From contig NZ_BBXE01000042.1 in assembly GCF_001570565.1 (NCBI RefSeq), positions 1-64,000 of the forward strand: a stretch of DNA of 64,000 nucleotides. The letters run 5' to 3'. Position 1 is the first letter of the stretch; each line of letters starts with the position of its first letter. The notes under the pieces are model-generated. The model ran no database searches, was not told the DNA's origin, and saw nothing but the letters and a program-made list of their open reading frames with translations. Below, in pieces: positions 4,876 through 31,035 of this stretch. The position numbers and the translations under genes are program-made. The DNA is from Herbidospora yilanensis (GTDB lineage Bacteria > Actinomycetota > Actinomycetes > Streptosporangiales > Streptosporangiaceae).

Positions 4876-4899
4876 CGCCGCGAATCAGCAGGTCAAGCC

Positions 4900-6994: not shown

Positions 6995-7065
6995 GGTCCG
7001 GGCTACTGTGGACGGCCACGTTCTGTCAGTGCTGGATGGTCTCCTGATGGCGGGAGGTGTGTCCA

Positions 7066-7719: not shown

Positions 7720-7980
7720 TCATCCCACCGGTGCCGGTATAACCGGTGGGGACGGCTCGCACGAGCCCTTCCGGTCGCAGGCCTCGACGAGTCGCCAGGG
7801 GCCCGGCAGACGGACCCACCAGGTGCCCGTCGCGCGCCCGTACCGAGCCCACACTGCGGGAGCCATCGGCGAGCTCCGCCGACGGACTCACGCACGCTCC
7901 CGTTCGGTGAGTGCCGCCCACAGCGCGAGTCCGTCACTTGGATAAAGCTCAAACAGAAGGAATACGAGCGACTCGCGAGG

Positions 7981-8160
7981 TTGCAGACCTGGAATGGCAC
8001 AAGCAGCCACAGCGGTTCAGCCGCCAAATGCGTCGAACTCGCCTCTCTAGGGAGCAGCATCTTGATCCGCGAGCCTATGAACCCCGGCAAGCGATTTCTG
8101 AACGTCGCGAACGTCAATGCCCGCCCAATCTTCGCCACACGCTACGCTAATCGGCTCTGA
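7981..8160 (+). CDS. Possible DUF397-family small protein, non-canonical start
   Basis: Reading from TTG at 7981 gives 59 residues containing SSHSGSAAKCVELAS and SSILIREPMNPGKRFL. This resembles the actinobacterial DUF397 pattern (HSG..CVE...VRDSK.P). The length fits the family. There is no ATG or GTG in frame upstream, and the ribosome binding site is poor, so this may be a decayed gene. DUF397 genes usually sit beside an XRE regulator, which is absent here. The rest of the 7720-8197 gap holds nothing I recognise. Confidence 0.35.
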   Translation: MQTWNGTSSHSGSAAKCVELASLGSSILIREPMNPGKRFLNVANVNARPIFATRYANRL

Positions 8161-8197
8161 CTAACGGGATGGGCGAGGCCTGAGGCCCCGCCCTCAC

Positions 8198-10815: not shown

Positions 10816-10820
10816 GGTCG

Positions 10821-11294
10821 TCAGAGGTCCTTGTTCGTCGGCTGGATGTTCAGGTCGCTGAGGGTGCGGGCGAGGGATGTCACGCGGAAGCCGTCGCGGT
10901 GTTCGACGTCGGCGAGCGACAGGTCGGCGCGGTGGGTGAGCACGGCGGGATCCCGCTGGCGGAAGCCGGGTGGAACCGTCATGTGCACGGCGGCCGGGTC
11001 GACTGGGGCGAGGCCGTGGACGCTCAAGGCCGTCTCATGGGAGAAGACCGCGCGGTCCAAGCTCCACAGCGACCAGCGGGCCAGATGATCCAGCTCGCTG
11101 GCCGGGAAGTCGGCGTACTCGCGGAAGCGATACAGACCTCTGTCGATGCGCATCCAGTTGCCCCGGCGGACGTGAAAGTACTGCGACTGGTAGGAGTAGC
11201 CGTCGAGCAGTGCTTGGGCCGCCGTGAAGTAGCCGCGCTGACGGGCGGCCCGGCGCCAGAGCCGTGCCCGGGGTTCTTCCTCCCGCTGCCTCAC
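10821..11294 (-). CDS. AbiEi-like antitoxin/winged-helix protein inside the hsd operon
   Basis: 157 residues. The N-terminal winged-helix segment (RQRGYFTAAQALLDGYSYQSQYFHVRRG is its extent, read as GYFTAAQAL then YFHVRRGNW) is followed by the AbiEi core with FSHETALSVHGL, HMTVPPGF and FRVTSLARTLSDL. In AbiE type IV toxin-antitoxin systems this protein represses its operon and opposes the nucleotidyltransferase AbiEii. No AbiEii gene is adjacent. It starts at GTG 11294, lies 86 bases after hsdR and ends five bases before hsdM. A role as regulator of the restriction operon is inference. Confidence 0.8.
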   Translation of the reverse strand: MRQREEEPRARLWRRAARQRGYFTAAQALLDGYSYQSQYFHVRRGNWMRIDRGLYRFREYADFPASELDHLARWSLWSLDRAVFSHETALSVHGLAPVDPAAVHMTVPPGFRQRDPAVLTHRADLSLADVEHRDGFRVTSLARTLSDLNIQPTNKDL

Positions 11295-11380
11295 GGTAGC
11301 CAGGTTAGCTTAGGTGAAACTTATAGTCACTTTTAGTTTTGTGCACGATGTGACCATCGTCTTGTTCGCCCCACTAGAAC

Positions 11381-16609: not shown

Positions 16610-16812
16610 TAACTCCGTCTATGTGATCGTTATATCGCTTTGAGTAATGGTCGGTTGGCTGCTCTGCTGCGACTGATGATCCTTCGCACGATGGCGCAGG
16701 CGTACCGATCGCCGTGTTCAGTGCAGTGGGTCCGGAGCGGAGCGGACTTGGAGCCACTATCAGATCTGCATACTGATGGGGCTGTTGATGACTGTGTGGA
16801 TACTCTGAAGTG

Positions 16813-17448
16813 ATGACCGACCAGACGATCTCTCCGGACGAGCAAGAAACGGCGCTTGATCTGGATGCCGTCGTTGCTGCGGGATGGGCTGTTCCCGAGG
16901 CGTTTCCGGGAGCGGAGTTCGCTCGCGCCGAGTCCTTTTGGCGGGAGCGAAGGACCGAGGATGCCAGGCTTCTGCAGGTACGTGCCAAGGCGTCAGTGCT
17001 CGTGGAATCCTGGACTGGATGTGTACCGCGTGATGTCGGTTCCTTCGGTATCCAGCTCAACCTGGAGAGCAGTGATCTTGACCTCGGAATTGGATACCCG
17101 ATTGCCGGCCGAGACGATCTCATGGCGGCGCTCGCCCCGCATGTGGTGTTCAAGGACGAGCGCCGGACCCGTTTCGACACCACCCGGCTGGTGTTCGCCT
17201 TCGCCGTCGACGGCATCGAGATCGACCTGTCCGCGCTGACGGAGGAGGACTTCGCCGTCGCGTGTCGGATGCTGGATCAGATCGACAGCGAGATGACCGA
17301 GGCGGAGCGGATCGCGCACACCTGGGTCAAGTACCAGCTACGCCGGGCGGGCAGGGCAGAGGAATACGCGAGCTGGAAGCTCGTCACGTACGCGCGTTTC
17401 TGCCCGGAGTTCAACTGGGTGCCGATCACCGAGCCGACCGCCGGTTAG
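16813..17448 (+). CDS. Nucleotidyltransferase-fold protein (Pol beta superfamily)
   Basis: 211 residues. It carries the superfamily signature: Gly-Ser at about 76-77 (DVGSFGIQL), the paired acidic motif SSDLDLG at about 86-92 and the third acidic residue in GIEIDLSAL at about 138. These residues normally bind the metal and nucleotide triphosphate. The substrate is unknown. It converges on the radical SAM gene, with four bases of overlap at the stop codons. A helper role for that operon is possible but would require separate transcription. It is not an obvious AbiEii. Confidence 0.7.
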   Translation: MTDQTISPDEQETALDLDAVVAAGWAVPEAFPGAEFARAESFWRERRTEDARLLQVRAKASVLVESWTGCVPRDVGSFGIQLNLESSDLDLGIGYPIAGRDDLMAALAPHVVFKDERRTRFDTTRLVFAFAVDGIEIDLSALTEEDFAVACRMLDQIDSEMTEAERIAHTWVKYQLRRAGRAEEYASWKLVTYARFCPEFNWVPITEPTAG

Positions 17449-19574
17449 GTGCCGCATGGGTCGGCGGCGTTGATCAGCTCCCACGACCTGTCAGCGGCCC
17501 ATCGGCCGGACTCGTGGACGAGCCGGTTGGCCGCCTGCGGCGGGAGCGCCGCCACCACGCCCGGCAGCGTCGAGTCCATGCGCTGCCGGAGTTCAGCCAG
17601 TCGCTCGTCGAGCATCGCGTCCAGGCCGGCGGTGAGCAGCGGGCGCTGTGAGAGCTCGGTGTTTCGGCTGATCAGGTCGATCATGCTGGTGAGGACCGAG
17701 AACGCGGCTTCTTTGATGACGGCTCTGGCTGTGCGGACCTGTCGCTGCGGCTCTCCGTCGAGGATCTTCTCCAGGCTCTTCAGCGTGTAGTCCAGGGCGA
17801 AGTTGCGGTCTACCCACAGCTGCGCCCGGTGGGAGCACTCGCCGATGCGCCAGTCGGCGAACTCCGCGTCGACCCGGCCCATGGATGGGCGGACCTCCCT
17901 GGTCAGCCCGGCGGCCTCGGCCTTGCGGGTGTAAGGGGCACCGATCAGGCACTCCATCGAGACGAGCATGTAGGAGATGCCGGTGTAGAAGGGCTTGCCG
18001 GTGCTGTGCTCGGCGACGAAGGCCGGGTCGGTGACGCCGTCGACGATCTGTTCGGCGCTCAGATGGGGGAGCGGGCGCAGTAACAGGTCGGTTCGCCCCT
18101 GGAAGGCGTGCGTGGCCAGCAGTTCCTCTTCGGTCATCAGGTGGTCGAAGGTGATGTACGTGTAGCGGGTCGGCACGCCCAGCGCCGACAGGGTGCGGAT
18201 GGCCAGGGCGTTCTGTTCTGCGGTGGTCTCCTTGTGGAAGCGGTCCAGGATCGAGGTGACGCCGGACTCCACCCCGAACAGGCAGCGGCGCAGTCCGTCG
18301 CGCAGCAGGGTCCGCCACATCGTGGCACGTTCCACATGCCATGCACGGTCGCGGCCAAGGTGGGTGACCTGGTCGATACGGCAGGACGTCTCCCAGCGGA
18401 AACCGGCTTTGGCGAGTTCGGTGGCGATGGCAAGGATGCGTGGGACGGCGTTCTCATCGCGGCCGATGGCTTCCTCGTCGACCAGGTAGAGGGTGCGGGA
18501 GATCTCCGGGTGACGAGCGAATTCCTCGTTCAGGGCGCCGAGCATCCACGGCAGTTCCTCTGGCGCTCCTCCTGCCCACACACCTTTGTGACCCCGCGGA
18601 CAGAACGAGCACGTGCTGGTACACCCCCGCGTCGTCTCCAGCTGGGCCACGCCCTGGTGGGCGAAGGTTGCCTGCAGTAGGTCCAGTTCGGGGAAGAAGT
18701 CCTGGGCGTTACGGTTGGAGACAGTCGGGGTTCGGCGGCGGCCGATCGCGACGGCTCCGCCTCGGGGCGCGCCGACGTAGCCGATGCCGTGGATCTGGTC
18801 GCGGGCCAGGTCGCCGTGCCAGTGGGCGATGACGTCGCGGATGGTCGGTTCTCCGGCGCCGCGCGCGATGAGCAAACGGGGGTAACGCTCCAGGAGCAGG
18901 GCCTCGTTGCGGGCGGTCAGGCTGCCGCCGGCCAGGATCAGCGGCACCTGATCCTGGACTTCGTCGAGCAGGCGGGTCATCAGGTCGTACTGGCCGAAGG
19001 TGGCCGAGATCCCGAGGACGTCCGGCTGCTGGACGGTGATAGCGGTGAGGATGTCGTCCAGGGTGACGCCGAGCTGCATGTCCATCATTTCGACGTGGCC
19101 TGACAGGGTGGAGCGGGCGGCGCGGGCCAGGTCGGAGATGGCCAAAGGGAAGCGCGGCAGTGGGAAGTGCTCAGGCCGGTACAGCGCGGCGAGCAGGATG
19201 CGCGGCCGGGTCAGTCGGGTCACGGCGTCCGTGGTGATGTCGGCGTGGCTGATCCAGTCGCCGGGCGTGTGCAGGCGCATGTTGTCCATGCTCCAGGCGG
19301 GCCAGGATCGGGTCTCGTGTGGCTGGCCGGACAGATCGGCCAAGAACCACTGGCCTGGCTGGTCGGTGCCGTGGGCGAGGAGCCGCCGTTCCAGGGTGCC
19401 GGTGATGACGACTTCGTGGGCGGGCAGGATGCCGGTCACCGCCCGGCGAAGGGCGTTGGGCTGGCTACGGGGGATCGCGGCCAGCAGTTGGCGCTGGTCG
19501 GCGGTCAGTGGTGTGAGTCGGCCGATGGCGTTCAGGAGCAGTTCGAGGCTTGCATCGGCACCGATGGTGAGCAT
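17445..19574 (-). CDS. B12-binding-domain radical SAM enzyme
   Basis: 709 residues. A Rossmann-like cobalamin-binding region spans about 125-250 (LDDILTAITVQQPDVLGIS, LILAGGS). The radical SAM cluster motif follows as GCTSTCSFCPRG, with Cys near 318, 322 and 325 in CxxxCxxC spacing. Family members use a 4Fe-4S cluster, SAM and often cobalamin for methylations or rearrangements at unactivated carbon. Start ATG 19574 with GGAGG upstream. It is the last gene of the long leftward operon, 84 bases after the phosphatase-like gene. The substrate is unknown. Confidence 0.88.
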   Translation of the reverse strand: MLTIGADASLELLLNAIGRLTPLTADQRQLLAAIPRSQPNALRRAVTGILPAHEVVITGTLERRLLAHGTDQPGQWFLADLSGQPHETRSWPAWSMDNMRLHTPGDWISHADITTDAVTRLTRPRILLAALYRPEHFPLPRFPLAISDLARAARSTLSGHVEMMDMQLGVTLDDILTAITVQQPDVLGISATFGQYDLMTRLLDEVQDQVPLILAGGSLTARNEALLLERYPRLLIARGAGEPTIRDVIAHWHGDLARDQIHGIGYVGAPRGGAVAIGRRRTPTVSNRNAQDFFPELDLLQATFAHQGVAQLETTRGCTSTCSFCPRGHKGVWAGGAPEELPWMLGALNEEFARHPEISRTLYLVDEEAIGRDENAVPRILAIATELAKAGFRWETSCRIDQVTHLGRDRAWHVERATMWRTLLRDGLRRCLFGVESGVTSILDRFHKETTAEQNALAIRTLSALGVPTRYTYITFDHLMTEEELLATHAFQGRTDLLLRPLPHLSAEQIVDGVTDPAFVAEHSTGKPFYTGISYMLVSMECLIGAPYTRKAEAAGLTREVRPSMGRVDAEFADWRIGECSHRAQLWVDRNFALDYTLKSLEKILDGEPQRQVRTARAVIKEAAFSVLTSMIDLISRNTELSQRPLLTAGLDAMLDERLAELRQRMDSTLPGVVAALPPQAANRLVHESGRWAADRSWELINAADPCGT

Positions 19575-19658
19575 GCGGACCTCCGCGCGGAAAGGAAAGA
19601 AGGGATGACGGCATGGCCCTGCGGCGTCCAGGACGCCGGGGCTACGGGGGAGCCGGGG

Positions 19659-20477
19659 TTAGGCGGGGATGCTGATGACGGCCGTCATGGCCGCGTGGTC
19701 GCTGAGGCCTGAGGTGCGGGGCTGGTGGAGGTAGCCGCATTCGAGCACCGCGCCGACGGGTGAGCAGAAGATGTGGTCGAAGCGGTAGCCGTCGCCACTG
19801 CGTCGCCCGTACCAGGAGTGATCGACCGCGTCCGGGTGAAGGTGCCGGAAGGCGTCGGCGTACCCGGCGGTGGTGAAGGCGGTGTAGAAGTCGTACTCCC
19901 AGGTGCCGAACACCTTGTGGTGGGGCTGGTGGCCCGGCTCCAGGACGTTGAGGTCGCCGGCGATGACGATCGGGCCGCTCACGGCGAGGCCGTCTGCCAG
20001 GTTCGGCAGATGAGCGGTTACCGCGTTCTGGAAGGCGCGCTTGTCTTCGTTGCGGCGGTCTTTGGGGCCGCGGGAGGGCACGTAAAGCCCGACCACGCCG
20101 ATGGTGTGATCCCCGTCCAAGTGGAGACGGACGGCGGCGCAGCGATGCGGAAGATGCTCCACCTGGATGGAAGTGACGGATTCCTGCTTGCCGGTGCGCG
20201 AGGCGACGAGGGTCAGATAGTCGGGGCCGCCGTCGCTTACGTGGACGGAGAATCCGTGCTCGCTCAGGGCCTGGGTGATGGCGTGCCCGCCCGGGGCGAC
20301 CTCGGTCAGCACGATCACGTCGGCGTCCTGTCCGGCCAGCCAGTCGGCCTGCCGTCGGGAGCGGGCGGGGTTCGCGTGCTGGACGTTGAGGGTTAGCACG
20401 CGCACCAGGCCGGGCCGCGTCTCGTGCTCGGCACCGGGCAGGAGGCTGAGCTGCTGGCGGTCCTCGGCGCTGGCCAT
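19659..20477 (-). CDS. Endonuclease/exonuclease/phosphatase family hydrolase
   Basis: 272 residues with the EEP pattern: LTLNVQHAN (Asn), VIVLTEVA (metal Glu), GDLNV, DHSWYGR, YRFDHIF and the C-terminal SDHAAM (Asp-His pair). The family hydrolyses phosphodiester or phosphomonoester bonds in nucleic acids, lipids or small molecules. There is no signal peptide, so it is cytoplasmic. An AGAGGT site lies before ATG 20477. Only three bases separate it from the aldo/keto reductase stop. Its place among SAM enzymes hints at a phosphorylated or nucleotide-like intermediate, which is inference. Confidence 0.85.
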   Translation of the reverse strand: MASAEDRQQLSLLPGAEHETRPGLVRVLTLNVQHANPARSRRQADWLAGQDADVIVLTEVAPGGHAITQALSEHGFSVHVSDGGPDYLTLVASRTGKQESVTSIQVEHLPHRCAAVRLHLDGDHTIGVVGLYVPSRGPKDRRNEDKRAFQNAVTAHLPNLADGLAVSGPIVIAGDLNVLEPGHQPHHKVFGTWEYDFYTAFTTAGYADAFRHLHPDAVDHSWYGRRSGDGYRFDHIFCSPVGAVLECGYLHQPRTSGLSDHAAMTAVISIPA

Positions 20478-20480
20478 GGG

Positions 20481-21578
20481 TTACCTCTGGATCTCGTCGG
20501 TGAAGACCTCGCCCTGGGCGTCCAGACGTTCCTGCAGCCGGCCCATGACCACGCGGGCCTGTCTGATCACCTCTGAAGGTGGGCGGTCGCCCAGCGCCGA
20601 CAGGTTCATCGCCACTTGTTCGGGGGTGGTGAATCCGACCAGCACGGCCGCGTGGGCATACCGATCGAGGCACGCCCACAGGGCGATGTGAATGAGGTCT
20701 TCCCGGCGAGAGCCGACCACTCCCTGCAGTTCATCCAGCCCTTCGGCGATGAGGGCAATGGCCGCCGGGGTGAACCAACGCTTCCGGGAACGATGGTCTC
20801 CCTTCCCGAACTGCGGCGGGGCGGCCGGGTCGTAGGCGCCGGTGAGGAGGCCCTGCGCGAGCGGCTTGTTGATCAGCACGCCGACCTCGTGCTCGGCGGC
20901 GAACGCGAAGATGCCCTCCGAGCGATCGGCAGGAGACAGCAGGTGGTCGCGGACCGCGAGCACGTCCGGTTCGACAGCGGCGAACACCGCGCGGAACCGG
21001 GCGATCTTGTCGCCTCGTTGATCGGGCGAGGCGGTGAGGCGGTCGAGGGCGAAGCGGTGCGGGCCGCGCATCCCTACCGCCCGGATCAGTCCCTCTCGCC
21101 GGAAGGTCTGCATCGCCTCGGCCGCAGGTTCCAGCCAGCGGTCGCCGTCTCCGAAGTCGGAGTGGTGCAGGAAGTAGATATCGAGATGGTCAGTGCGCAG
21201 GTTGTCCAGGGACTGCTCCAACTGGCGGCGCATGTGCCGGGGATCGAACCCGTGCAGGGCCGTCCCGGCGAAGTAACCGACCTTGGACACCAGAACGATC
21301 TCCTCGCGGGGGACCCGCGCGACCAGAGCGCCGATCTGCCGTTCGGAACGGCCGTGTCCGTAGACGTCGGCGGTGTCGAACAGGCGGGCGCCCATCTGCC
21401 AGGCGACCTCCAGGCCGGCGGCGGACGCCTCGGCCGAGGCACCGGTGGACCAGCCCATCGGCAGGCCCAGGTTCTCGTCCGGGCCGCCGATGCCCCAGCA
21501 GCCCATGCCGACGGCGGGCACGGTGATGCCGGATCGGCCGAGCGTCCGCTGGGGCAACGGGGCGGGTGGCGACGTCAC
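20481..21578 (-). CDS. Aldo/keto reductase
   Basis: 365 residues, an (alpha/beta)8 NADPH oxidoreductase. The tetrad is visible: Asp in FDTADVYG with Tyr five residues on, Lys in LVSKVGY and His in YFLHHSD. The N-terminal RTLGRSGITVPAVGMGCWGIG is typical of the family (shown here only as GRSGITVPAVGMG). GTG 21578 overlaps the GNAT stop by four bases, so it is coupled to it. The likely role is reduction or oxidation of a carbonyl in the unknown pathway. Confidence 0.9.
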   Translation of the reverse strand: MTSPPAPLPQRTLGRSGITVPAVGMGCWGIGGPDENLGLPMGWSTGASAEASAAGLEVAWQMGARLFDTADVYGHGRSERQIGALVARVPREEIVLVSKVGYFAGTALHGFDPRHMRRQLEQSLDNLRTDHLDIYFLHHSDFGDGDRWLEPAAEAMQTFRREGLIRAVGMRGPHRFALDRLTASPDQRGDKIARFRAVFAAVEPDVLAVRDHLLSPADRSEGIFAFAAEHEVGVLINKPLAQGLLTGAYDPAAPPQFGKGDHRSRKRWFTPAAIALIAEGLDELQGVVGSRREDLIHIALWACLDRYAHAAVLVGFTTPEQVAMNLSALGDRPPSEVIRQARVVMGRLQERLDAQGEVFTDEIQR

Positions 21579-22522
21579 GTGGGCCTCCTAGATGAGGGTG
21601 CTTGGTAGTAGCGGATCTGTCCTGTCGTGGTCATACCGAGCGCGTGCAGGTCGGCTAGAAGGGCGGGTGCGTTGTCGGGGACGATAGAGCGCGCGACCAC
21701 GGCGTGATGGCGGATCCCGGCGGACAGAGCGGCCGTGATCAGCGGCGGGGCCACCTCGGCGCGGTCGGTGTCCGGGGCGATGAGCACGTCAGCCAGCAGC
21801 GCCTCGGCGGGTTCTGCGGGGTCGTCGTGGGCCAGCGGATACATCAGTGCCGCCCCTTGAAGGTCGCCACTGGGGCCATCCACGATGAGCAGGCCATCAG
21901 AGACGAACCGTTCGTCCGCGCTCCAACGCCGGTAGGTGTCCTCAGCGACCTGCCGTCCATGATCGGGGTGAAGAGCCTGGTACAGGTGGCTCAGCGCGTC
22001 GACGTCGGAGGCTTCGGCCCGCCGCACTCTCACCCAGCCACGGTCGGGAAGGCGCGGCAGCAAGGAGAGATCGGCTTTCAGCAGCGCCGCGGTGGAGTGA
22101 GGACGCCACCCGGCCTTCTCGAAGAATTCGTAGCCGTGCTTCCGTGCTCCAGGGATCTCGGCGGTGAGTAGGGCTTGCGTCCCGTCGGCCTGGAATTCGG
22201 CCGCCTCCTGCAGCAGTGCCGTACCGAGTCCGCGCTGCTGCCATTCGGGCGCGACGATGGGACCCCACAGCCGAGCTGATGAGCCCGGCGCGGCCGCGTG
22301 GCGAAGAGCCGCTGCGGCGGCCAGTGTGCCGTCGGCGAGACGGGCCAGGAACACGGTCGTCGGCAGCGCGTTGCCACTGGGGCGCAGCCGGGAGCGCACG
22401 AGTGCGGAGGTCACCGGCCGTTGGTCGGGCCAGCCGCGCATGGCGGCGTATCCGAGATCTGCGAGCTCCTCGTCCAGAGGGGTCCTGGGCTCATAAGCGA
22501 TGTTGCTGATCGAGATCGTCAT
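21575..22522 (-). CDS. GNAT acetyltransferase, probably two GNAT domains
   Basis: 315 residues. The first half has the acetyl-CoA binding pattern IVAPEWQQRGLGTALLQ (Q/RxxGxG/A) and a YEFFEKAGW C-terminal strand. The second half, from about residue 165 (VRVRRAEASDVDALSHLY), looks like a second, degenerate GNAT fold. ATG 22522 overlaps the preceding methyltransferase stop (ATGA). It would acylate an amine, but the acceptor is unknown. Confidence 0.82.
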   Translation of the reverse strand: MTISISNIAYEPRTPLDEELADLGYAAMRGWPDQRPVTSALVRSRLRPSGNALPTTVFLARLADGTLAAAAALRHAAAPGSSARLWGPIVAPEWQQRGLGTALLQEAAEFQADGTQALLTAEIPGARKHGYEFFEKAGWRPHSTAALLKADLSLLPRLPDRGWVRVRRAEASDVDALSHLYQALHPDHGRQVAEDTYRRWSADERFVSDGLLIVDGPSGDLQGAALMYPLAHDDPAEPAEALLADVLIAPDTDRAEVAPPLITAALSAGIRHHAVVARSIVPDNAPALLADLHALGMTTTGQIRYYQAPSSRRPT

Positions 22523-23325
22523 GGGCGCCTCGATTGGGTGGCTGCTATACCGACGCAGACACTGCCGCGTCCGATCAGGAATGCCGGGTGGAGGGCCAGC
22601 GCGACCGTGGGCGGGGCGCTTCGGGTGAACAGGCGAACCTGGCCGAAGCCGTTGCGGAAGGCGTCGGCGATCTGATCGGGAGACGCGAACGGGCTGGGCC
22701 TGGAAGGGTGGCGAAGCCGTTGTCGGGCGAGGACCATCCGTTCGGCCGAGGTCGCGGGCCAGGTGGTGGCGGCCAGGGCTTGTCCAGCTCGGCCGATCCG
22801 GTCGTATTCGAGGTAGCCGGCGCGTCCGGCGATCCGAGAGGTGTAGAGCAGGAGGCCGTCCTCGGACAGCAGACCTGCCAGGCGGGTGATCACTGCCTCG
22901 CGGTCTGCGGGACTGGGCAGCAGCGACAGCAGCCCATCGGTGACGATCAGATCGAACGATCCTGACACTCCGGCCAGCTCCGGCGCTTCGGATCGAAGGG
23001 TGAAGACCTGGGTGCCGGTCTCCTTCGCCCAGGTGTTGATGAGAGTCAACGGGGTCGGGCAGGCGTCGGCCACCGTGATCTGCATGCCCGGCTGCAGTTC
23101 GGTGAGGATCTGCGGCATGGTCTCGTCCGAGGAACCACAGACCAAGGCAGTCGACGGTTGCCTTTCGGCCAGCGCACGCTGGTAGAAAGCGGTGTGCCAG
23201 CGGGGATTGCCCTTCAGGCCTGCCTGCCGGAACAGCCGCCACGAGGCGTGGTAGCAGAAACAGCCCGGGGCGCAGTTCTCTCGGGCGGCCGACCAGGCGC
23301 CTCTGATCGTGAGGGACGCGGTCAT
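22519..23325 (-). CDS. SAM-dependent methyltransferase, Cys-rich N-terminus
   Basis: 268 residues. The N-terminus contains a Cys cluster (ENCAPGCFCYHASW). The SAM-binding region reads TALVCGSSDETMPQIL then ITVADACPTPL, and motif IV-like FDLIVTDGLLSLLP follows. The glycine motif is less regular than in classical class I enzymes. It overlaps both neighbours by four bases. The substrate is unknown. Confidence 0.75.
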   Translation of the reverse strand: MTASLTIRGAWSAARENCAPGCFCYHASWRLFRQAGLKGNPRWHTAFYQRALAERQPSTALVCGSSDETMPQILTELQPGMQITVADACPTPLTLINTWAKETGTQVFTLRSEAPELAGVSGSFDLIVTDGLLSLLPSPADREAVITRLAGLLSEDGLLLYTSRIAGRAGYLEYDRIGRAGQALAATTWPATSAERMVLARQRLRHPSRPSPFASPDQIADAFRNGFGQVRLFTRSAPPTVALALHPAFLIGRGSVCVGIAATQSRRP

Positions 23326-24098
23326 CGTTTCTGGCCGATGAGGTGGAACAGGCGGGCGATCTGCCGGTAGGGGTCACGGCATCCGGCCTGCCATTCAGCC
23401 TCCAGGACGTAGTCGAACCCCTCGCCGACCGGGGCGTCGCCCAGGTGGTCGGTGAACACCCGCACCCCGTACCACTGGCATGTCGTCACCCCGGCCTCGC
23501 CGAGGATCGCCTCGACCGCGGAGAGGGCGTCGGCCCGGCTGCTCACCCCGAGATTGCCCTCGACGGAACCGGCCCCCAGCACCGCGACCGCATCCGCCCA
23601 TCGGCCCTCCAAGGCGGGACGCATGGCCAGCCCATCGGCGTTCTTGGTCAGCAACGACACCAGGCCGCCCGGTCGGACCGCCGATGCGAGGTCGTTCAGG
23701 AAGGCGTGCGGGTTCTCGGCGTACATCAGCACGCCATGGCAGCAGACGAGATCGAAGCCGTTCTCGGCCAGATGCCCGGCCTGGTCGGCGGTGCCTTCGA
23801 CAAGCGTGATTCGGTCGCGGACCTGCTCGCTTTCTCCCGAGATCCGGTCGGCGGCCCGCTTGTGCATGCCCTGGTCGGGGTCCAGCAGGGTCACCCGGTG
23901 TCCGGCGCGCGCGAGCAGGACGGCCTGGTGGCCGTCACCCCCGCCGATGTCCAGGACCTGCTGGGAGTCGCTGGGCAGGTGAGTGCGCAGGGCGCGGGCG
24001 ACCAGGGCGTGACGGAGCGCGCCGCGCAACGTACCGGCGTGACGGGCATAACCAGCCGACAGATCAGCACCGGACGCCGAGGTCCAACTGTTGCTCAC
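23322..24098 (-). CDS. SAM-dependent methyltransferase, CmoM-like
   Basis: 258 residues. A clear class I motif, VLDIGGGDGHQAVLLA, and an acidic strand end, VTLLDPD, bind SAM. Beyond that it shares features with CmoM/SmtA, the tRNA cmo5U carboxyl methyltransferase: LLTKNADGLAMRP, YGVRVFTDHL and a C-terminal DPYRQIARLFHLI. An RNA or carboxylate substrate is therefore plausible but not shown. GTG 24098 overlaps the upstream hypothetical gene's stop. Confidence 0.78.
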   Translation of the reverse strand: MSNSWTSASGADLSAGYARHAGTLRGALRHALVARALRTHLPSDSQQVLDIGGGDGHQAVLLARAGHRVTLLDPDQGMHKRAADRISGESEQVRDRITLVEGTADQAGHLAENGFDLVCCHGVLMYAENPHAFLNDLASAVRPGGLVSLLTKNADGLAMRPALEGRWADAVAVLGAGSVEGNLGVSSRADALSAVEAILGEAGVTTCQWYGVRVFTDHLGDAPVGEGFDYVLEAEWQAGCRDPYRQIARLFHLIGQKR

Positions 24099-24733
24099 GG
24101 GTGGGTCTCCTTCGGCGAAAGCAGGGAATCGAACAGGGCCTGGTGCTGAAGCACCAGGCGGATCGACAGGTAGCGGGTCCGTAGCAGTTCGCGGAGTACC
24201 TGACTGGCCGGCGTGTCAGGGAGGGTGCCCTCACGGACGGCCCGGCGCAGTGCGATCAGCTGAGGTACATGCGCTTCGACGTTTTCCAGGTCGATCGGGT
24301 GACTGCGCTCCAGCCACGAGCTGAGCCGCTCTAAGGTCATGACCTCCCAGACCACGGTGTCGCCCCAGAATCCGTCCGGGCCTGCGGCGGTGACCAGGTG
24401 GGGGATGCGGCGCAGCCCGGTTTTGGGCAGGGGCGGTGGCACCGGGCTCGTCACGCACGCGGCTTCGCCGCTGCGACGGCCCCTGATCGTGCTCAGATGC
24501 TTGGAGAAGGCCAGCGCCAAGCCCGTCTCTGCCAGCGCGGTACCGGTAGGGGCGATGGCCACGGCCTCGACCCATGAACGCTGGGCCGAGGTCAGCGCGA
24601 GGCGTACAGCGGCGGCCGGGTCGTGCTCTTCGTGCCAAACGCGTCGTCGTGCCCCGCTGGTAACGACCCCGGGGCTGAGGAGTCTGGCGGCGTCCTGGGC
24701 GGTGAAGAACCGCTCTCCTTGGGCGGTGATCAC
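24095..24733 (-). CDS. Hypothetical protein of the SAHH-like/radical SAM operon
   Basis: 212 residues, soluble, not recognised. The N-terminus (GERFFTAQDAARLLSPG) looks like a short helix-turn-helix or substrate-reading motif, followed by mixed alpha/beta sequence with DGFWGDTVVWEVMTLERL and a helical C-terminus. GTG 24733 overlaps the SAHH-like gene's stop and its own stop overlaps the CmoM-like start, so it is an integral operon member. Confidence 0.65.
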   Translation of the reverse strand: MITAQGERFFTAQDAARLLSPGVVTSGARRRVWHEEHDPAAAVRLALTSAQRSWVEAVAIAPTGTALAETGLALAFSKHLSTIRGRRSGEAACVTSPVPPPLPKTGLRRIPHLVTAAGPDGFWGDTVVWEVMTLERLSSWLERSHPIDLENVEAHVPQLIALRRAVREGTLPDTPASQVLRELLRTRYLSIRLVLQHQALFDSLLSPKETHP

Positions 24734-26163
24734 CGGGTGGCCTGGGGGCCGAACCGTGTGTAGTAGCGCTCAAGCAGGCCGCAGGACTCCAGGACCCGGT
24801 TAGAGGCGTCCACGTTGTGCCCAGCGGTGAAGCCGTGCTCAGGCGTTGCGAGGGTCGACGCGGCCACCAGGAGGCTGGCGAGGATCAGATCGGAGTACAT
24901 GTTCGGCAGCGACTCGGCGTGATGAAAGTTGATCGGGAAACCGTCGCCCACGAGGGTCACCTTTGCGCCCGAAGGCATGTGCAGCCGGGTTCCCAGCACA
25001 CCTTCGTCGGTGACCTTCTGCGCCTCATCCGCCAGCTCCGCGACCGCGAACTCCCGATCGCGCGAGGTCGTGGATACCAAATAGCAGTCTCGGCTGATCG
25101 CGGCGGCGTGTTCGCCGCGTAGTCCGGTCCGACCGGTGCAGCCGAGAATTATCAGTGGACGGTGATCGCGCAGAAGCGTGCTGACGCACCGGCCAGTGAG
25201 ATACCCACGCTCGTGCGCCGCGATCAGCCGTACCAATTGCCGGTCATGTACGGCCACCCGCATGTGGCGTGACCGCAGCACAGCGGCGATGTGTTCACCG
25301 ATCCGTCCGAACCCCACCACAAGGGCCGGCTGGCCTTCGAGTTTTTCCTCCGGAAGAAGGCGCAGAAGATTTCTGACCACCGCGTCCGCGATGCCGTAGC
25401 ACTCCATCGTCGCCTTCAGTCGCGACTCGGCCACTGAGAAGATCGGCAGTGGGATCCGGTCCTCCCACGGTTCGAGCCGGGTGATGCCTGAGATGGTCTG
25501 TTCCACCAGGCCGACGAAGCGCGGAAGGAGGTCGGGCCGCTGCTCCAGCAGGACGGGCAGCGTGTAGCCGCCGTCATCGATCAGTAGACCCGGCAGCCCG
25601 AGCGTGGCGGCGCGTCGTGTGTGATCGTGCAGGGCGTCCGCCGCGTCCGTCCAAGGCCACACGGTGACGCCCTGCCTGGCCAGGTGCGCGTCCACACGGT
25701 CGGTGTGCCGGTAGGGGTACCCCTTGTCCAATACGGTGACCGCGTGCGCGGGCACCCCCATAGCCAGTACCGCGTCCACCATCACCAGGAAGTCGGTCAT
25801 GTGATGCACCGTCAGCACCGGAGCCACCGATGCCAGGCACCCGGGCGGCAGGAAGCACGGCAGTTCGCCCGTCAACGGCATCTGACCGCGCAGCGCGTTC
25901 ATCTCGGTCGTCGTGAACGGAATCCGTCGCACCGCCGCAAGAATCGCCTGTACCTGGTCGGTGGTGAGCCCCGTCGTCTCTTCCGCAATCAAGGTGATGA
26001 CGTGGGTGCCCGAGGCAGATGCCTTGGGCCGGGCCGGCGCGCTGACCAGAAGACGAACGCATGCCTCGGCTCCCACACGCAGGCGCAGGCCGGTCCCGTC
26101 GAGAGCCACCTCGCCGAGGTCGGCGACCTTGGCCACTGCCTCGATCACCGCTTCGCGCACCAT
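24730..26163 (-). CDS. S-adenosylhomocysteine hydrolase-like protein, divergent active site
   Basis: 477 residues from ATG 26163, which has AGGAGG upstream. SAHH landmarks are present in order: DDGG near 196, LVEQTISGITRLEP (counterpart of EETTTGV), ESRLKATMECYG near 246-257 and the NAD Rossmann motif VVGFGRIGEHIA near 282. By eye, the Lys and Asp of the usual KSKFDN active-site stretch fall on Leu and Met. The enzyme may therefore act on a different substrate or have lost hydrolase activity. Placed with two or three SAM-using enzymes, SAH disposal or handling of an adenosyl-like product are both plausible. Confidence 0.8.
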   Translation of the reverse strand: MVREAVIEAVAKVADLGEVALDGTGLRLRVGAEACVRLLVSAPARPKASASGTHVITLIAEETTGLTTDQVQAILAAVRRIPFTTTEMNALRGQMPLTGELPCFLPPGCLASVAPVLTVHHMTDFLVMVDAVLAMGVPAHAVTVLDKGYPYRHTDRVDAHLARQGVTVWPWTDAADALHDHTRRAATLGLPGLLIDDGGYTLPVLLEQRPDLLPRFVGLVEQTISGITRLEPWEDRIPLPIFSVAESRLKATMECYGIADAVVRNLLRLLPEEKLEGQPALVVGFGRIGEHIAAVLRSRHMRVAVHDRQLVRLIAAHERGYLTGRCVSTLLRDHRPLIILGCTGRTGLRGEHAAAISRDCYLVSTTSRDREFAVAELADEAQKVTDEGVLGTRLHMPSGAKVTLVGDGFPINFHHAESLPNMYSDLILASLLVAASTLATPEHGFTAGHNVDASNRVLESCGLLERYYTRFGPQATR

Positions 26164-26210
26164 CGGCCTCCTATTGCGGACTGGGCGGCCCATCCTTGCA
26201 GGGTGGGGTT

Positions 26211-26810
26211 TTAGTTCGAGGTAGCGGTTGCCGACTTGCCAAAGCCGTACTTGAGTTCGGCTCGCTGCGCTCGAACGCGCTGGCCCTTCATCTGCATCTG
26301 CGCGAACTGCTTGCTCACCCCGTAAGTCTCGGCAACGCGCGTGTTGTCCCAGCCATCGAAGGCCATCCGCGCGGCTGCAGCGAGTGGAATCAACAACTCG
26401 CCGGCCATGAACTTAGCCTCGTATTCCTGTTTCTCATCGAACTGGCGCTTGTGGTCCTCGCCGAGGATCACTCTGTCGAAGGGGTGTTCCAGCAAGAGAT
26501 GGCCGAGTTCGTGGGCGATGTTCGACCGACGCCGGGCGGGGGAGTGGGACTCGTTCTCCACGATGAGACGTGCCGTGCCTACTGAAACCAGTGCGGCGGA
26601 CCACGCGGCCGTATCACCGAGGGTGAAGTGACCAAAGGCTTCCGGGCTCACACCGTGATCGAGTAGATCCCCGATTCCGTAAACAGGGATCCCATGGGCG
26701 TCCGCCATCGCGTACGGATCGAGTGGATCTGTCGGGCTCAGCCCAAGCTCTGCCCGCTCCTCGAGGACGACCTCGCGCATCCGCGGCTGCGTCCACCCAC
26801 CTCGGGCCAT
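26211..26810 (-). CDS. ImmA/IrrE family metallopeptidase
   Basis: 199 residues. It has the zincin motif IAHELGHLLLEHP, and further on a third-ligand candidate in EYEAKFMAGELLIP. ImmA/IrrE peptidases cleave or inactivate a partner XRE repressor on receiving a signal. The start codon directly abuts the stop of the XRE gene just upstream, the standard pairing. It lies 47 bases before the SAHH-like start and is probably co-transcribed. Confidence 0.9.
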   Translation of the reverse strand: MARGGWTQPRMREVVLEERAELGLSPTDPLDPYAMADAHGIPVYGIGDLLDHGVSPEAFGHFTLGDTAAWSAALVSVGTARLIVENESHSPARRRSNIAHELGHLLLEHPFDRVILGEDHKRQFDEKQEYEAKFMAGELLIPLAAAARMAFDGWDNTRVAETYGVSKQFAQMQMKGQRVRAQRAELKYGFGKSATATSN

Positions 26811-27188
26811 TTAGCCCTCCCGGCCTTCTCGTTCGACCCGGAACCGCCGGGCTGCGGCGGCGATGACCTCTTCGAGGTACGCCACATCGTTCTCCGAGAG
26901 ATCACGACGCGCCCGCAGCAGGGGGCCGATGGAGGCCACGAGTTCCGGCTCCTCGTCGTCTGTTCGCATCGGATCCACGTAGAAGGACTCGGCTGGCATC
27001 CGCAGCCAGGTGGTCATCGCCGCGAACGCCGTGACATCTGGCTTCAAGCCACTGGCCATGCGGGAGATTGTCGACGCGGACACGCCGATCTCCTTGGCCA
27101 ACTGCCGCCACGATAGATCCTTTTCGGCACGCGCGGCGTCTAGGGCCGCGTGCAGCGCCTTCACGTTGACCCCAGAGCTGTCGCTCAT
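26811..27188 (-). CDS. XRE-family transcriptional regulator
   Basis: 125 residues from ATG 27188. The helix-turn-helix reads LSWRQLAKEIGVSASTISRM. The C-terminal half is acidic and helical. It is the first gene of the leftward operon and is divergent from the ubiquitin-like module across 136 bases holding three palindromes. It probably represses one or both directions until its ImmA/IrrE partner removes it. That model is inference from known pairs. Confidence 0.88.
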   Translation of the reverse strand: MSDSSGVNVKALHAALDAARAEKDLSWRQLAKEIGVSASTISRMASGLKPDVTAFAAMTTWLRMPAESFYVDPMRTDDEEPELVASIGPLLRARRDLSENDVAYLEEVIAAAARRFRVEREGREG

Positions 27189-27324: not shown

Positions 27325-27585
27325 ATGTCTCACGACGACCACGGGCGCCCGCCCGTCTTGATCATCGTCAACACCCGCTCGCACCCCTGGCGGGAGAAGG
27401 CCATCAACTTCGAGCAGCTCGTCGAGCTCGCCTACCCGGGCCAGCCGCCGACCGACCAGGACACCATCACCGTCAGGTACAGCCGTGGCCACGACGGCCA
27501 CGGCTCCGGCAGCCTGACCGCCGGCCGCAGCGTGAACGTCAAGAACGGAATGGTCTTCGATGTCGTCCGCACCTCTCGTTCGTGA
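27325..27585 (+). CDS. Ubiquitin-like modifier (multiubiquitin-domain family), single domain
   Basis: 86 residues. The beta-grasp pattern typical of the bacterial multiubiquitin domain is visible: VLIIVNTRSHPWREKAINFE, then LVELAYPG, then TITVRYSRG and a final strand MVFDVVRTSRS. Only one domain is present. It ends in Ser rather than a Gly-Gly tail. ATG 27325 is preceded by AGGAGA. The last 26 bases overlap the E1 gene in another frame, so the two are coupled. It is the probable protein tag of the module. Confidence 0.8.
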   Translation: MSHDDHGRPPVLIIVNTRSHPWREKAINFEQLVELAYPGQPPTDQDTITVRYSRGHDGHGSGSLTAGRSVNVKNGMVFDVVRTSRS

Positions 27586-28729
27586 CCCGGACCTGTCCCG
27601 CCTGCTCAACGACGGCTACGACGTCGTGGTGCAGGCGGGGCACCTGCTCGTCCGGCACATTCCCTACGTCACCGAGGCCGTTACCGTTCAATACGGATTC
27701 CTCGCCTACCCGGTCACCATCAGCGGCGACCGGGTCGTCTCCGACACCGACCACCGCATCTGGTTCGGAGGCTCGGCACCGTGCGACGAGCACGGCCGCA
27801 GGCTGCCGATGGTCAACGACGAGTTCCGGGCGATTGCCGACGGTGTCCAGGCGAACTTCATGCTGTCCTCCAAGCCGGGCCCGAACGGCTACCCCGACCA
27901 GTACACCAAGGTCACCGCCTACACCCGGATGATCGCCGACCAGGCACAGGCACTGGAACCGATGGCCACGGCCACGCCGGGAGCTGCCTGGCAGGAAGTC
28001 GAGGACGACTCACCCTTCGTCTACCGCGACACTGCCACCTCGCGGGCCGGGCTTGCGACGGTCCACCGTCGCTTCCGGGGCCACCGAATCGCGATCATCG
28101 GGCTCGGCGGCACCGGCGGGTACATCCTGGACCAGGTCGCCAAAACCGAAGTCGACGCGATCCTGCTCATCGACGGAGACCACTTCGACAACCACAACGC
28201 CTTCCGGGCGCCGGGCGCGGCACCGCTGGAGACACTCCGCGAGCGCCCGAACAAGGCCTCATACTTCGCGTCGGTCTACTCCCGGATGCACCGTGGCATC
28301 ACGACATACGAGCATTACCTCGACGAGGACAACCTCGAAGTCCTGTCTGGGGCCACCTTCGTGTTCCTGGCCTCGGACGACGCGCTGAGCAAAATCCCGA
28401 TCATGGACTGGCTGGAGGCCCGAGGCGTGCCGTTCATCGACGTCGGCATGGGCATCGAGGAGGTCGATGGCAAGCTCACGGGCCTGCTGCGAGTCTCCAC
28501 CAGCTTGCCGGAACGTCGTGCAGAAGCCCGTCGCAGAGTCCCTGCCCCGGCCCCGGAACGCGACGACTACGGTCGCAACATCCAGACCGCCGACCTCAAC
28601 GCGCTCAACGCACTCCTCGCGGTCGGCCGCTGGAAACGCCACATCGGCGTCTATGCCGATGTGACCAACGAGGCCTTCACCACCTATTCGCTGATCACGA
28701 ACGAGATCGCCAACGAGGACCTGCCATGA
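27560..28729 (+). CDS. E1-like ThiF/HesA adenylating enzyme with an N-terminal extra domain
   Basis: 389 residues. Residues 1-150 form an extra domain (DUF6791-like by appearance) with IPYVTEAVTVQYGFL and IWFGGSAPCDEHG. Residues 165-389 are the E1 fold: IAIIGLGGTGGYILDQ (nucleotide loop, about 178-193), ILLIDGDHFDNHNAFR and a late helical segment NALNALLAVGRWK. It should adenylate the C-terminus of the upstream modifier. The only cysteine in the whole protein is Cys75 in the N-terminal domain, so the ThiF part lacks the usual catalytic Cys. Its ends overlap both neighbours. Confidence 0.85.
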   Translation: MSSAPLVRDPDLSRLLNDGYDVVVQAGHLLVRHIPYVTEAVTVQYGFLAYPVTISGDRVVSDTDHRIWFGGSAPCDEHGRRLPMVNDEFRAIADGVQANFMLSSKPGPNGYPDQYTKVTAYTRMIADQAQALEPMATATPGAAWQEVEDDSPFVYRDTATSRAGLATVHRRFRGHRIAIIGLGGTGGYILDQVAKTEVDAILLIDGDHFDNHNAFRAPGAAPLETLRERPNKASYFASVYSRMHRGITTYEHYLDEDNLEVLSGATFVFLASDDALSKIPIMDWLEARGVPFIDVGMGIEEVDGKLTGLLRVSTSLPERRAEARRRVPAPAPERDDYGRNIQTADLNALNALLAVGRWKRHIGVYADVTNEAFTTYSLITNEIANEDLP

Positions 28730-29118
28730 CTGCGGCCGCGTTCCTGCGACCGGAGTTCGTCGAGAGCTTCCCCTCGGAAATGTCGCGTGGAATCCTCTAC
28801 GTTTCTATCCCCTACGCGACCTGCGGGCACCTATGCGCCTGCGGCTGCGGGCAGGAGATCGTCACCCCGCTGTCACCCGCGCAGTGGGCACTCACCTACG
28901 ACGGCGAGAACGTTTCTCTACGTCCTTCGATCGGTAACTGGGGGTTGTCCTGCCGCTCCCACTACTGGATCAAGGAAGGTGTGGTGCGGTGGAGTCGTCG
29001 CTACACAGCCGATGAGATCGACGACAACCGGGCTCGCGACAGGAGGGATCTACAGGAGCACCTCGATCAAGACCGCCCTGGCCCGATTGCGAAGTTGATT
29101 CGCCGCCTCTGGCGATAG
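28726..29118 (+). CDS. DUF6527 protein of the ubiquitin-like module
   Basis: 130 residues. A Cys-rich loop, CGHLCACGCG (Cys 33, 37, 39, 41), probably binds zinc, followed by RPSIGNWGLSCRSHYWI with Cys76 and His79. This matches my recollection of DUF6527, a family found with bacterial multiubiquitin/E1 operons, where a processing or deconjugating role has been proposed. That role is not evident from this sequence alone. ATG 28726 overlaps the E1 stop (ATGA). It completes a three-gene set with no separate E2 gene. Confidence 0.78.
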   Translation: MTAAAFLRPEFVESFPSEMSRGILYVSIPYATCGHLCACGCGQEIVTPLSPAQWALTYDGENVSLRPSIGNWGLSCRSHYWIKEGVVRWSRRYTADEIDDNRARDRRDLQEHLDQDRPGPIAKLIRRLWR

Positions 29119-29202: not shown

Positions 29203-30312
29203 TCAGCGGTTGGCGGCATCGAGTTCAGGTGGCGATTGTTGTGTCGGGCTTCCTGTTGGGTCATCGAGAAGATCGAATCGGAGGTCCACGAAGATCTTGT
29301 CGATGGGCACATCGTGGGCACGGCAGTACGACACGATGTCTTCCCACTGCAGGTCGCCGGGATGCGGTCGCGTGGCCACGTATGGGCCGACGAAGCTGTC
29401 GAAGTGCATGTCCTCGTATTCGATCTTCGCGAACCTCCGGCCGATCAACTGACCCACTCGGCTGACCACCTCCTGCTCAGTCATCGTCGTGACATCCATC
29501 AACTCCTGGATTTCGACGGCGTATGTCGCACCGATTTCCACCTGCCCGACGAGGTCACGGCCGCGTTGCAAGAGAAGGGCGAGCATCACTCGGGCAGGTC
29601 GGCTCAGGCTCTGGATGCTCTCCGCGAACGCGGCCATAGCCGCGACATTGCCGTCCCGGATCTCGGGATCGTCGCCCTCCCACTTGTGATGGGCAAGAAA
29701 GGCCTTCAACGTGCGAGCAGGACTCACGGCGGAATCCCCGGTCCGATCGGCGACGCGAACGGATTTGGAGTTGGCCAGATCCGAGACGGCCTGCGGGCCG
29801 CAGAAACGCTCGACCCAGGATTGGCCGAAGAATTCGTCCACGAGACGTGGATGGTCTTTCAACAAGGCTGACACTTCCTGAGCGCCCCACGAAACGAGGG
29901 CGATTCCAAGCTTGGCCAGTCGTTCGCTCTGCTTCCGGATTTCCGTGTCAAGCTGTGTTCTGCGCAGGTTGCAGGAGGTGGCGTAGTAGAATACGGCGGT
30001 CTTGTCCGCCCAGTCGCCAGCTATCAAATCGTCGACAGCCTTCTTGATCTTTGCGGCAGTGAGGTTTTTGACCCGACGCGATTGCAGGACGGCGTAGACC
30101 CTCTCTCCGTCTCCCCCGTCCGTCGGAGGCGCTGAGCGCCGGGCGTAGGCGTCGATCCCATCCTGTGCCTGCCCTGCCAGACCGAACAGCTTGGTCTCGA
30201 CACCTTCGACGATCTCTAATAGCTGTCGGAACAGGTGCTCGGCATCGACCCATTCCAGTTGGTCGATAGGCAACATCTGGGCTCTGGTAGTGATTGGCGG
30301 CATAGGTTTCAT
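29203..30312 (-). CDS. Protein with restriction-endonuclease-like N-terminal domain
   Basis: 369 residues. The N-terminal 170 residues resemble Mrr-like PD-(D/E)XK effector domains: GLAGQAQDGIDAYARR supplies the Asp, and RVYAVLQSRRVKNL the QxR/K strand. YYATSCNLRR and HPRLVDEFFGQSWVERFCG, typical of the same domain family, follow. The C-terminal half is unrecognised. Such domains usually cut DNA when a sensor part is triggered. Twelve bases downstream of the next gene on the same strand, so likely co-transcribed. The conserved catalytic Lys appears to be Arg, which is tolerated in some families. Confidence 0.65.
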   Translation of the reverse strand: MKPMPPITTRAQMLPIDQLEWVDAEHLFRQLLEIVEGVETKLFGLAGQAQDGIDAYARRSAPPTDGGDGERVYAVLQSRRVKNLTAAKIKKAVDDLIAGDWADKTAVFYYATSCNLRRTQLDTEIRKQSERLAKLGIALVSWGAQEVSALLKDHPRLVDEFFGQSWVERFCGPQAVSDLANSKSVRVADRTGDSAVSPARTLKAFLAHHKWEGDDPEIRDGNVAAMAAFAESIQSLSRPARVMLALLLQRGRDLVGQVEIGATYAVEIQELMDVTTMTEQEVVSRVGQLIGRRFAKIEYEDMHFDSFVGPYVATRPHPGDLQWEDIVSYCRAHDVPIDKIFVDLRFDLLDDPTGSPTQQSPPELDAANR

Positions 30313-30324
30313 CGTTTAAGTTTC

Positions 30325-31035
30325 TTACGGCATGAGGCGGAGGGCCGCGCCATCCCAGTAGAGATGCTCGGCATCGGTCCACGAGCTTGGGTAGCGGTTC
30401 AACCGGACGGCTTCTGGCGTGAATTCGGGGAACATATCGGGAGGCAGAGGTTCGCCTGTGTAGCTGTTCACCCACTCAGTCGCTACGGGGCTGGGCTTCC
30501 AATCTGGGTCGCCGATGAGAACTGCGGCGACCATCTTGGGTTTGAGAACGACGGACTCGCCTGGAATCCGCCATTCACGTTCCCAGCTGAAATCCAGTAA
30601 CCCACGTCCGTCAGTCCGGATCGGATTTCCCCAGACCTGTACGTCTTCGGGCCACTGCTGGTGGACCGACTCGGGAGGATAGGCGATCCCTCCGCCGCCG
30701 GCCGCGATGACATCGGCGCGGCGAAGCAAGACGCCCCAAGGGGGCATCCCCCGCTCGGTGAGCATGTGTAGGAGGTGATCGCCAGGGCTCTCGGACAGGC
30801 AGACGGCTGGCCCGTGGGCGCGGAAAGGAGTGAAGCCGCGGATGGTCCCAGTGGTGAGGATGGAGTCCAAGCGCTCCTGAGGGGTCATCGCCCGAATCGG
30901 CGAGGGCACGTGGGGAGTGCTCGGCGACGATGCCTTCCGACCACAGAAGTGGATCAGAAAGTTGCTCTGGCCGGGTCCGGTTGAGGACAGAATCGGCGGC
31001 AACGGAGCACGGTCGGGGTACATCATGATTCTCAT
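30325..31035 (-). CDS. Unknown protein, possibly AbiGi/DUF2971-like
   Basis: 236 residues, soluble. The layout NFLIHFCGRK, then LDSILTTGTIRG, VCLSESPGDHLL, PWGVLLRRADVI and DFSWEREWRIPG resembles proteins annotated as AbiGi-like or DUF2971-like, in which a Glu-x-Glu-Trp-Arg motif is conserved. The assignment is weak. It is the upstream member of a two-gene unit with the nuclease-like gene. Starts at 31035 or 31026 are both possible. Confidence 0.5.
   Translation of the reverse strand: MRIMMYPDRAPLPPILSSTGPGQSNFLIHFCGRKASSPSTPHVPSPIRAMTPQERLDSILTTGTIRGFTPFRAHGPAVCLSESPGDHLLHMLTERGMPPWGVLLRRADVIAAGGGGIAYPPESVHQQWPEDVQVWGNPIRTDGRGLLDFSWEREWRIPGESVVLKPKMVAAVLIGDPDWKPSPVATEWVNSYTGEPLPPDMFPEFTPEAVRLNRYPSSWTDAEHLYWDGAALRLMP

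Follow-up and report, generated by a model that had tools for sequence, protein, structure and literature searches.

The radical S-adenosylmethionine (SAM) enzymes OxsB and AlsB contract the furanose ring of dATP or dAMP in the biosynthesis of oxetanocin A and albucidin; the phosphohydrolase of the oxetanocin A pathway is the HD-domain protein OxsA, and AlsA removes a one-carbon unit. According to a published account (PMC13331322), no natural oxetane nucleosides besides oxetanocin A and albucidin are known, the OxsB/AlsB family acts on deoxyadenosine nucleotides, i.e. mononucleotides, and aldehyde reduction in oxetanocin synthesis is attributed to a nonspecific dehydrogenase. Here we describe genes encoding a homologue of these enzymes, and its partners, in a 64,000-nucleotide stretch of the 7.85 Mb genome of the soil actinomycete Herbidospora yilanensis (contig NZ_BBXE01000042.1, positions 1 to 64,000; the window). 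Eight minus-strand genes running from 26193 to 17445 and a convergent gene at 16810-17448 form what we predict to be a biosynthetic cluster of two cassettes. We consider it reasonably probable that this cluster makes a modified nucleoside by ring contraction, aldehyde reduction and phosphate removal, together with tailoring by the enzymes of cassette A; judging from its genes, the product is probably a new nucleoside-type compound.

An OxsB-type radical SAM enzyme

The core of cassette B is a gene for a 709-aa, putatively cobalamin-dependent radical SAM enzyme (17445..19574, minus strand). A phmmer comparison of its product with OxsB (PDB 5ul2) gives 270 bits (E 3.3e-79), whereas TokK, second among the solved proteins, reaches 27 bits. 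A profile built from 12 relatives matches OxsB with 394 bits (E 1.2e-116), positions 42-710 of its 715 aligning to residues 28-741 of the 744 in OxsB, N-terminal domain included. The window enzyme has 34.9% identity with the OxsB segment and 45% with AlsB, which we take to be its closest characterised relative; the figure for OxsB against AlsB is 31.5%, and 133 of the 160 columns identical between these two are retained in the window enzyme. There are 79 columns with at least 97% conservation in the family alignment that includes OxsB and AlsB. A CTSTCSFC motif lies at residue 318, with cysteines that are invariant in 12 aligned sequences, and the corresponding OxsB motif is one residue longer. 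By homology the enzyme is thus placed in the OxsB/AlsB family.

In a tree of the radical SAM sequences, 58 actinobacterial rows including the window form one clade (SH-aLRT 100); none of these has AlsA, and the AlsA rows lie outside. Gene architectures are clustered on this tree, requiring 17 changes compared with a shuffled mean of 39, and several architecture groups have been gained or lost more than once. The groups were assigned by hand, with loci L055 and L106 (no EEP-family gene found) and L059 (no nucleotidyltransferase-fold gene found) put in the EEP/nucleotidyltransferase group, and L102, L107 and OxsB in no group.

Partners of the radical SAM gene

We surveyed 79 radical SAM loci, of which 73 came from a peptide-pattern search whose locus set is the best 80 of 85 matches, hence a sample, and the others are L024-L027, L038 and L044; L037, L043 and L045-L047 were excluded as lying on the same contigs as L049, L048, L093, L065 and L095. 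Removal of 11 loci judged to be cut short (L080, L108, L110-L112, L115-L120) leaves 68, some of which have short flanks. The most constant partner is the aldo/keto reductase (AKR; 20481..21578, minus strand), the window copy of which matches PF00248 (E 1.6e-36) and has the motifs FDTADVYG, SK and LHH. An AKR of this type (identity of 36% or more across 35% or more of the query, no further than 7 kb away) is present near the radical SAM gene in 61 of the 68 loci, within 1.5 kb in 59 and at a median distance of 766 bases; a looser count gives 62, and the stricter criterion loses L055. For comparison, the H. yilanensis genome has 18 AKR-like matches over its 7.85 Mb, counting the one in the cluster, so that about 5% of 22-kb stretches are expected to contain one by chance. 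Pairwise distances of AKR and radical SAM proteins are also correlated (Mantel r 0.66 over 56 loci, with none of 2000 permutations as high). The count includes L048, where the match covers 36% of the gene; this AKR of Sphaerisporangium album (position 8360) may be broken, the match spanning about a third of the gene.

Seven loci lack a nearby AKR. Five of them (L027, L099, L101, L103 and L113) have an AlsA homologue that adjoins the radical SAM gene and is 46-49% identical to AlsA; the other two are L102 and L055. Locus L099 is that of the albucidin producer, Streptomyces albus subsp. chlorinus NRRL B-24108, whose OxsB homologue is AlbB, also called AlsB (PMC7074753); that study used the laboratory host S. 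albus Del14 for albucidin. We took as AlsA the gene upstream of and overlapping the AlsB gene, following the albA-albB order given there, and this gene does not match a simple CX3CX2C pattern. AlsA-like and OxsB-type pairs also occur in Duganella, Herbaspirillum, Pedobacter and on an Agrobacterium plasmid (L101, L103, L113, L027), and may represent possible albucidin-like pathways beyond Streptomyces.

The second partner is an EEP-family hydrolase (19659..20477, minus strand; PF03372, E 1.7e-12), with motifs NVQH, LTE, GDLN and SDH; no second EEP match was found in the H. yilanensis genome at E 1e-6. An EEP gene is present in 37 of the 68 loci and a CYTH gene in 19, such that 56 have one or the other and none has both. 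The third is the convergent gene (16810..17448, plus strand), coding for a 212-aa protein with a pol-beta-type nucleotidyltransferase (NTase) fold; a homologue lies at most 1.5 kb from the radical SAM gene in 27 of the 68 loci.

The 57 named-record loci in AKR-type groups represent 31 named genera and two metagenome-assembled genomes (MAGs) with no genus name, all with an AKR nearby except L055. Related clusters are found in many other actinomycetes. Other clusters of the family add genes for DegT aminotransferases, formyltransferases, thymidylate-kinase-like proteins, PfkB kinases, NUDIX proteins, phosphoribosyltransferases (PRTases), HAD proteins and major facilitator superfamily (MFS) transporters, the last in six of eight related PRTase-type loci. 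The kinase, phosphoribosyltransferase and NUDIX genes would fit nucleotide substrates, and the NUDIX proteins may serve in self-protection. Where a DegT aminotransferase gene occurs together with formyltransferase and thymidylate-kinase-like ones (L060, L062, L064, L066, L068, L072, L089, L090, L100, L025), an N-formylamino nucleoside is the putative product. The PRTase and HAD genes of plasmid relatives, in which a 658-aa protein has a sub-threshold Pribosyltran Pfam match, had at first suggested a Ter-type nucleoside-like metabolite system; this was dropped, as the OxsB match explained more.

Relatives of the radical SAM enzyme (E 1e-40) are present in eight of the 200 genomes that represent the order, H. 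yilanensis among them, and on Streptomyces and Nocardia plasmids, and the cluster thus looks like an accessory, mobile trait. In Herbidospora mongoliensis the radical SAM gene is interrupted by an IS21-like pair of IstB and Mu-type transposase genes (L037, 3564-8410; L049 is on the same contig), and this cluster is therefore probably inactive. An OxsB-family enzyme and an AKR are also encoded on contigs labelled as a Lokiarchaeota MAG (L112) and a Gammaproteobacteria MAG (L107).

Gene order and cassette A

The ten minus-strand genes between 27188 and 17445 had been described in the sequence-only reading as one operon with mostly four-base overlaps. The common strand and the named enzyme types are borne out, and five successive four-base stop/start overlaps link the genes from that for a protein resembling S-adenosylhomocysteine hydrolase (SAHH) to that for the AKR; the other junctions are of 3 nt (AKR-EEP), 84 nt (EEP-radical SAM), 17 nt (between the SAHH-like gene and an ImmA gene upstream) and 0 nt (between ImmA and an XRE-type gene). 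The extent needs revision at both ends, as the XRE and ImmA genes do not belong to the unit (see below) and the convergent NTase gene, the 3′ end of which overlaps the radical SAM stop codon, had been overlooked. The absence of a transporter holds for the operon itself, with the qualification that MFS genes are common in the related PRTase-type loci.

Cassette B comprises the AKR, EEP and radical SAM genes and the NTase gene, and cassette A the five genes upstream, all on the minus strand. These encode the SAHH-like, predicted NAD-dependent enzyme (24730..26193, 487 aa); hyp4, a conserved 212-aa protein of unknown function (24095..24733); MT1, a class I SAM methyltransferase (23322..24098); MT2, a divergent methyltransferase (22519..23325); and a 315-aa GNAT acetyltransferase (21575..22522). 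At all eight loci found with an SAHH-like protein at least 56% identical (the window, genomes G098, G084, G349 and G322, two loci in G101 and the Egibacteraceae MAG L050), all five cassette A genes are present and identically ordered, a linkage that exceeds chance. Where the SAHH-like protein is more distant (47% identical in L041, 39% in L042), a search nearby found none of the other cassette A genes.

The SAHH-like protein falls below the curated cut-offs for its family (NF004005, 86.9 bits versus 275; PF00670, 25.8 versus 27), and a profile of nine relatives matches solved SAHHs with E 5e-31. It has a GxGxxG NAD motif at residue 294 (GFGRIG), and what we take to be the catalytic His, Asp, Glu and Lys positions of SAHH align with conserved residues, the position of Asp190 being a Glu and the next Asn falling in a gap. 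Since its score is so far below the equivalog cut-off, and a high-scoring SAHH (506.8 bits) is encoded elsewhere in the genome on contig C13, plain recycling of S-adenosylhomocysteine seems unlikely. SAHH homologues are listed for the herbicidin and aureonuclemycin clusters (PMC6794829, Table 1; PMC10339500), and anmB-E is the four-gene cassette that was expressed for aureonuclemycin (PMC10339500); oxidation of a nucleoside sugar would thus be the likeliest role.

Among the remaining products, MT1 matches PF08241 (E 6.9e-17) and its best named model is CmoM (NF008264, 104 bits versus a cut-off of 366), and MT2 matches PF08242 below its cut-off (E 4e-4) and is kept at all eight cassette A loci. 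Pfam detects one GNAT domain in the acetyltransferase (PF00583, E 2.6e-8), and the length of the protein points to a second. Hyp4 has no Pfam or NCBIfam match at E 0.01; its predicted structure (pLDDT 83.6, pTM 0.84) has no Foldseek match at E 0.001. In one of the two G101 loci (L039), cassette A is followed by genes for a P-loop kinase, a different radical SAM protein and a PfkB kinase, and in the other (L040) the adjacent open reading frames have nearly the same lengths; a P-loop kinase gene also adjoins cassette A in G349 and G322. The closest solved structure to the L039 radical SAM protein is cytosylglucuronate decarboxylase (7vob, E 2.8e-11, a weak resemblance), a radical SAM enzyme of nucleoside antibiotic synthesis, and G101 perhaps has a second nucleoside-type pathway.

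A proposed pathway and its alternatives

In the pathway we propose, the radical SAM enzyme would abstract two hydrogen atoms from its (deoxy)nucleotide substrate and contract the furanose as its homologues OxsB and AlsB do. The AKR, as a dedicated reductase, would convert the resulting aldehyde to an alcohol, a role suggested by its linkage and supported by its not being found where AlsA removes the one-carbon unit. The EEP hydrolase would strip the phosphate or phosphates, the task of OxsA in oxetanocin A synthesis. Cassette A would contribute sugar oxidation by the SAHH-like enzyme, two methylations and acylation by the GNAT protein, before or after contraction, and the NTase-fold protein might conceivably attach a nucleotide to an intermediate or to the finished compound, as an activation or self-protection step.

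Several observations weigh against this pathway. For the radical SAM enzyme, the cobalamin-binding domain PF02310 scores 27.7 bits, below the cut-off of 32.1 (the stretch does align with OxsB); Asn186 of OxsB (own numbering of the segment) is a threonine in the remaining 65 of 66 rows, including the window and AlsB; and the stem of the 58-row clade is long, at 1.11 changes per column, so that the reaction may have changed. The root of the tree is uncertain because the OxsB branch is very long, L107 lies outside the clade despite having an AKR (38% identical), and L055 lies inside it with no AKR nearby. The correlation of AKR and radical SAM distances may reflect common host descent. Six AKR-positive loci by the looser count have neither EEP nor CYTH, five with a NUDIX gene (L053, L054, L106, L107, L114) and one without (L055), and the nearest solved relatives of the window EEP protein are of the DNA-acting exonuclease III type. 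Within the window, no protein of the HD-domain OxsA type is among the Pfam matches of the ten genes and 20 other proteins, tblastn with the gene that immediately precedes AlsB in L099 gives no match at E 1, and the operon contains no gene recognisable as an exporter or resistance determinant.

The alternatives overlap with one another, and their probabilities are not meant to sum to one. The best of them, which we nonetheless regard as unlikely, retains a nucleoside pathway in which the OxsB-related enzyme does not contract the ring and instead catalyses methylation, epimerisation or C-C coupling, the AKR acting on another carbonyl, such as that of a keto sugar which the SAHH-like enzyme would generate. 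The long stem of the 58-row clade fits this, as do the combination of an SAHH homologue, a radical SAM gene and oxidoreductases tabulated for herbicidin (PMC6794829) and the methylation by OxsB and AlsB that is reported, and considered an artefact, in PMC13331322. The 79 columns conserved through OxsB and AlsB argue the other way, and the SAHH-like gene is present in only 10 of the 68 loci versus 61 with a nearby AKR, which indicates that the AKR is independent of it.

It is also possible, and we think improbable, that cassettes A and B belong to unrelated pathways and are adjacent by accident. At both G101 loci and in G349 and G322, cassette A stands alone, and in 58 of 68 loci no SAHH-like gene accompanies cassette B. 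However, the two occur together, identically ordered, in the window, G098 (same genus), G084 and the distant Egibacteraceae MAG, a four-base overlap joins them in the window, and related SAHH, MT1 and GNAT genes accompany cassette B in PRTase-type clusters as well.

Prokaryotic viperins make 3′-deoxy-3′,4′-didehydro (ddh) nucleotides that stop phage polymerases, and by analogy the genes might be an intracellular antiviral system in a defence island, with ring-contracted nucleotides halting phage polymerases. The window does carry genes for type I restriction and a GmrSD-type protein as well as a ubiquitin-like/E1 block, compact loci of radical SAM, AKR and CYTH genes exist, L109 of Crossiella being a minimal example, and oxetanocin A is termed antiviral in PMC13331322. 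We nevertheless find this decidedly improbable: PADLOC gave no match for six cluster proteins (those other than the AKR, MT1 and the radical SAM enzyme), the MFS genes of PRTase-type loci suggest export, and phosphohydrolases would remove the active triphosphate. That the genes form an RNA- or DNA-modification operon, in which the CmoM-like MT1, exonuclease-like EEP and NTase-fold proteins act on nucleic acid, is scarcely credible in view of NCBIfam scores far under the curated cut-offs, the use of mononucleotides by the core enzyme family (PMC13331322) and the sparse, accessory spread within the order.

Returning to ring contraction, a wider proposal is that AKR-coupled OxsB-type clusters constitute a large, undescribed family making ring-contracted (oxetane-type) nucleotides, and that the compact forms with only radical SAM, AKR and CYTH or EEP genes would provide intracellular antiviral defence, viperin-like in effect and different in chemistry; we would give this only a small chance. 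If the pathway proposed above is right, the AKR would be a candidate reductase for the ring-contracted aldehyde, many more oxetane-type nucleosides would await discovery, on a scaffold that already includes antiviral and herbicidal compounds, and the two- and three-gene sets would allow clean tests of the enzymology. The AKR-linked OxsB/AlsB family deserves more attention than this single operon.

Neighbouring genes

The ImmA/IrrE-like peptidase gene (26211..26810, minus strand; PF06114, E 5e-19) and the XRE-type regulator gene (26811..27188, minus strand; PF01381, E 1e-7) had been counted with the operon, and an association of the operon with a ubiquitin-like module had been raised. Neither protein has a match at E 1e-6 in any of the 79 radical SAM loci, and in H. 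mongoliensis their genes sit with ubiquitin-like, E1 and DUF6527 genes about 55 kb from the biosynthetic genes. From this arrangement we conclude that they are part of a separate, ubiquitin-like unit. The block in the window (27325-29118, 26211-27188, 29203-31035) encodes multiubiquitin-domain, DUF6791-ThiF E1-like and DUF6527 proteins together with XRE, ImmA and two unknown genes, and is kept as a unit in H. mongoliensis (L127). Further away, at 4284-13840, are integrase-core, GmrSD-type, RadC, N6 DNA methylase and type I restriction HsdR genes.

Comparison with known nucleoside pathways

The sequence-only reading had offered a nucleotide-like small molecule or an RNA as the product. Membership of the core enzyme in a family that acts on deoxyadenosine nucleotides supports the former; the hints of the latter are weak ones alone, namely distant resemblances to CmoM, exonuclease III and tRNA-nucleotidyltransferase. 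With the oxetanocin A pathway (OxsA/OxsB) the cluster shares a homologous, putatively B12-dependent radical SAM enzyme and, as proposed, a requirement for a phosphohydrolase and an aldehyde reductase; it differs in having an EEP protein, a cluster-encoded reductase and the extra cassette of SAHH-like, methyltransferase and GNAT genes. The albucidin pathway (AlbA/AlbB, equivalent to AlsA/AlsB) has the more similar radical SAM enzyme, but the window has an AKR and the five AlsA loci do not. The herbicidin and aureonuclemycin clusters (hcd/her/hbc/anm), compared here through a published table only (PMC6794829), likewise have an SAHH homologue alongside genes for radical SAM, oxidoreductase and methyltransferase proteins, although the radical SAM protein listed is of 435 aa, in contrast to the 709-aa OxsB type. 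Cytosylglucuronate decarboxylase is weakly similar to the radical SAM protein beside cassette A in G101, and the window has no such gene. By its gene content, then, this is not an oxetanocin cluster and not an albucidin cluster either, and while the earlier view that it matches no standard biosynthetic class is correct for polyketide synthases, nonribosomal peptide synthetases and ribosomally synthesised and post-translationally modified peptides, its core matches the described oxetanocin A and albucidin type of pathway.

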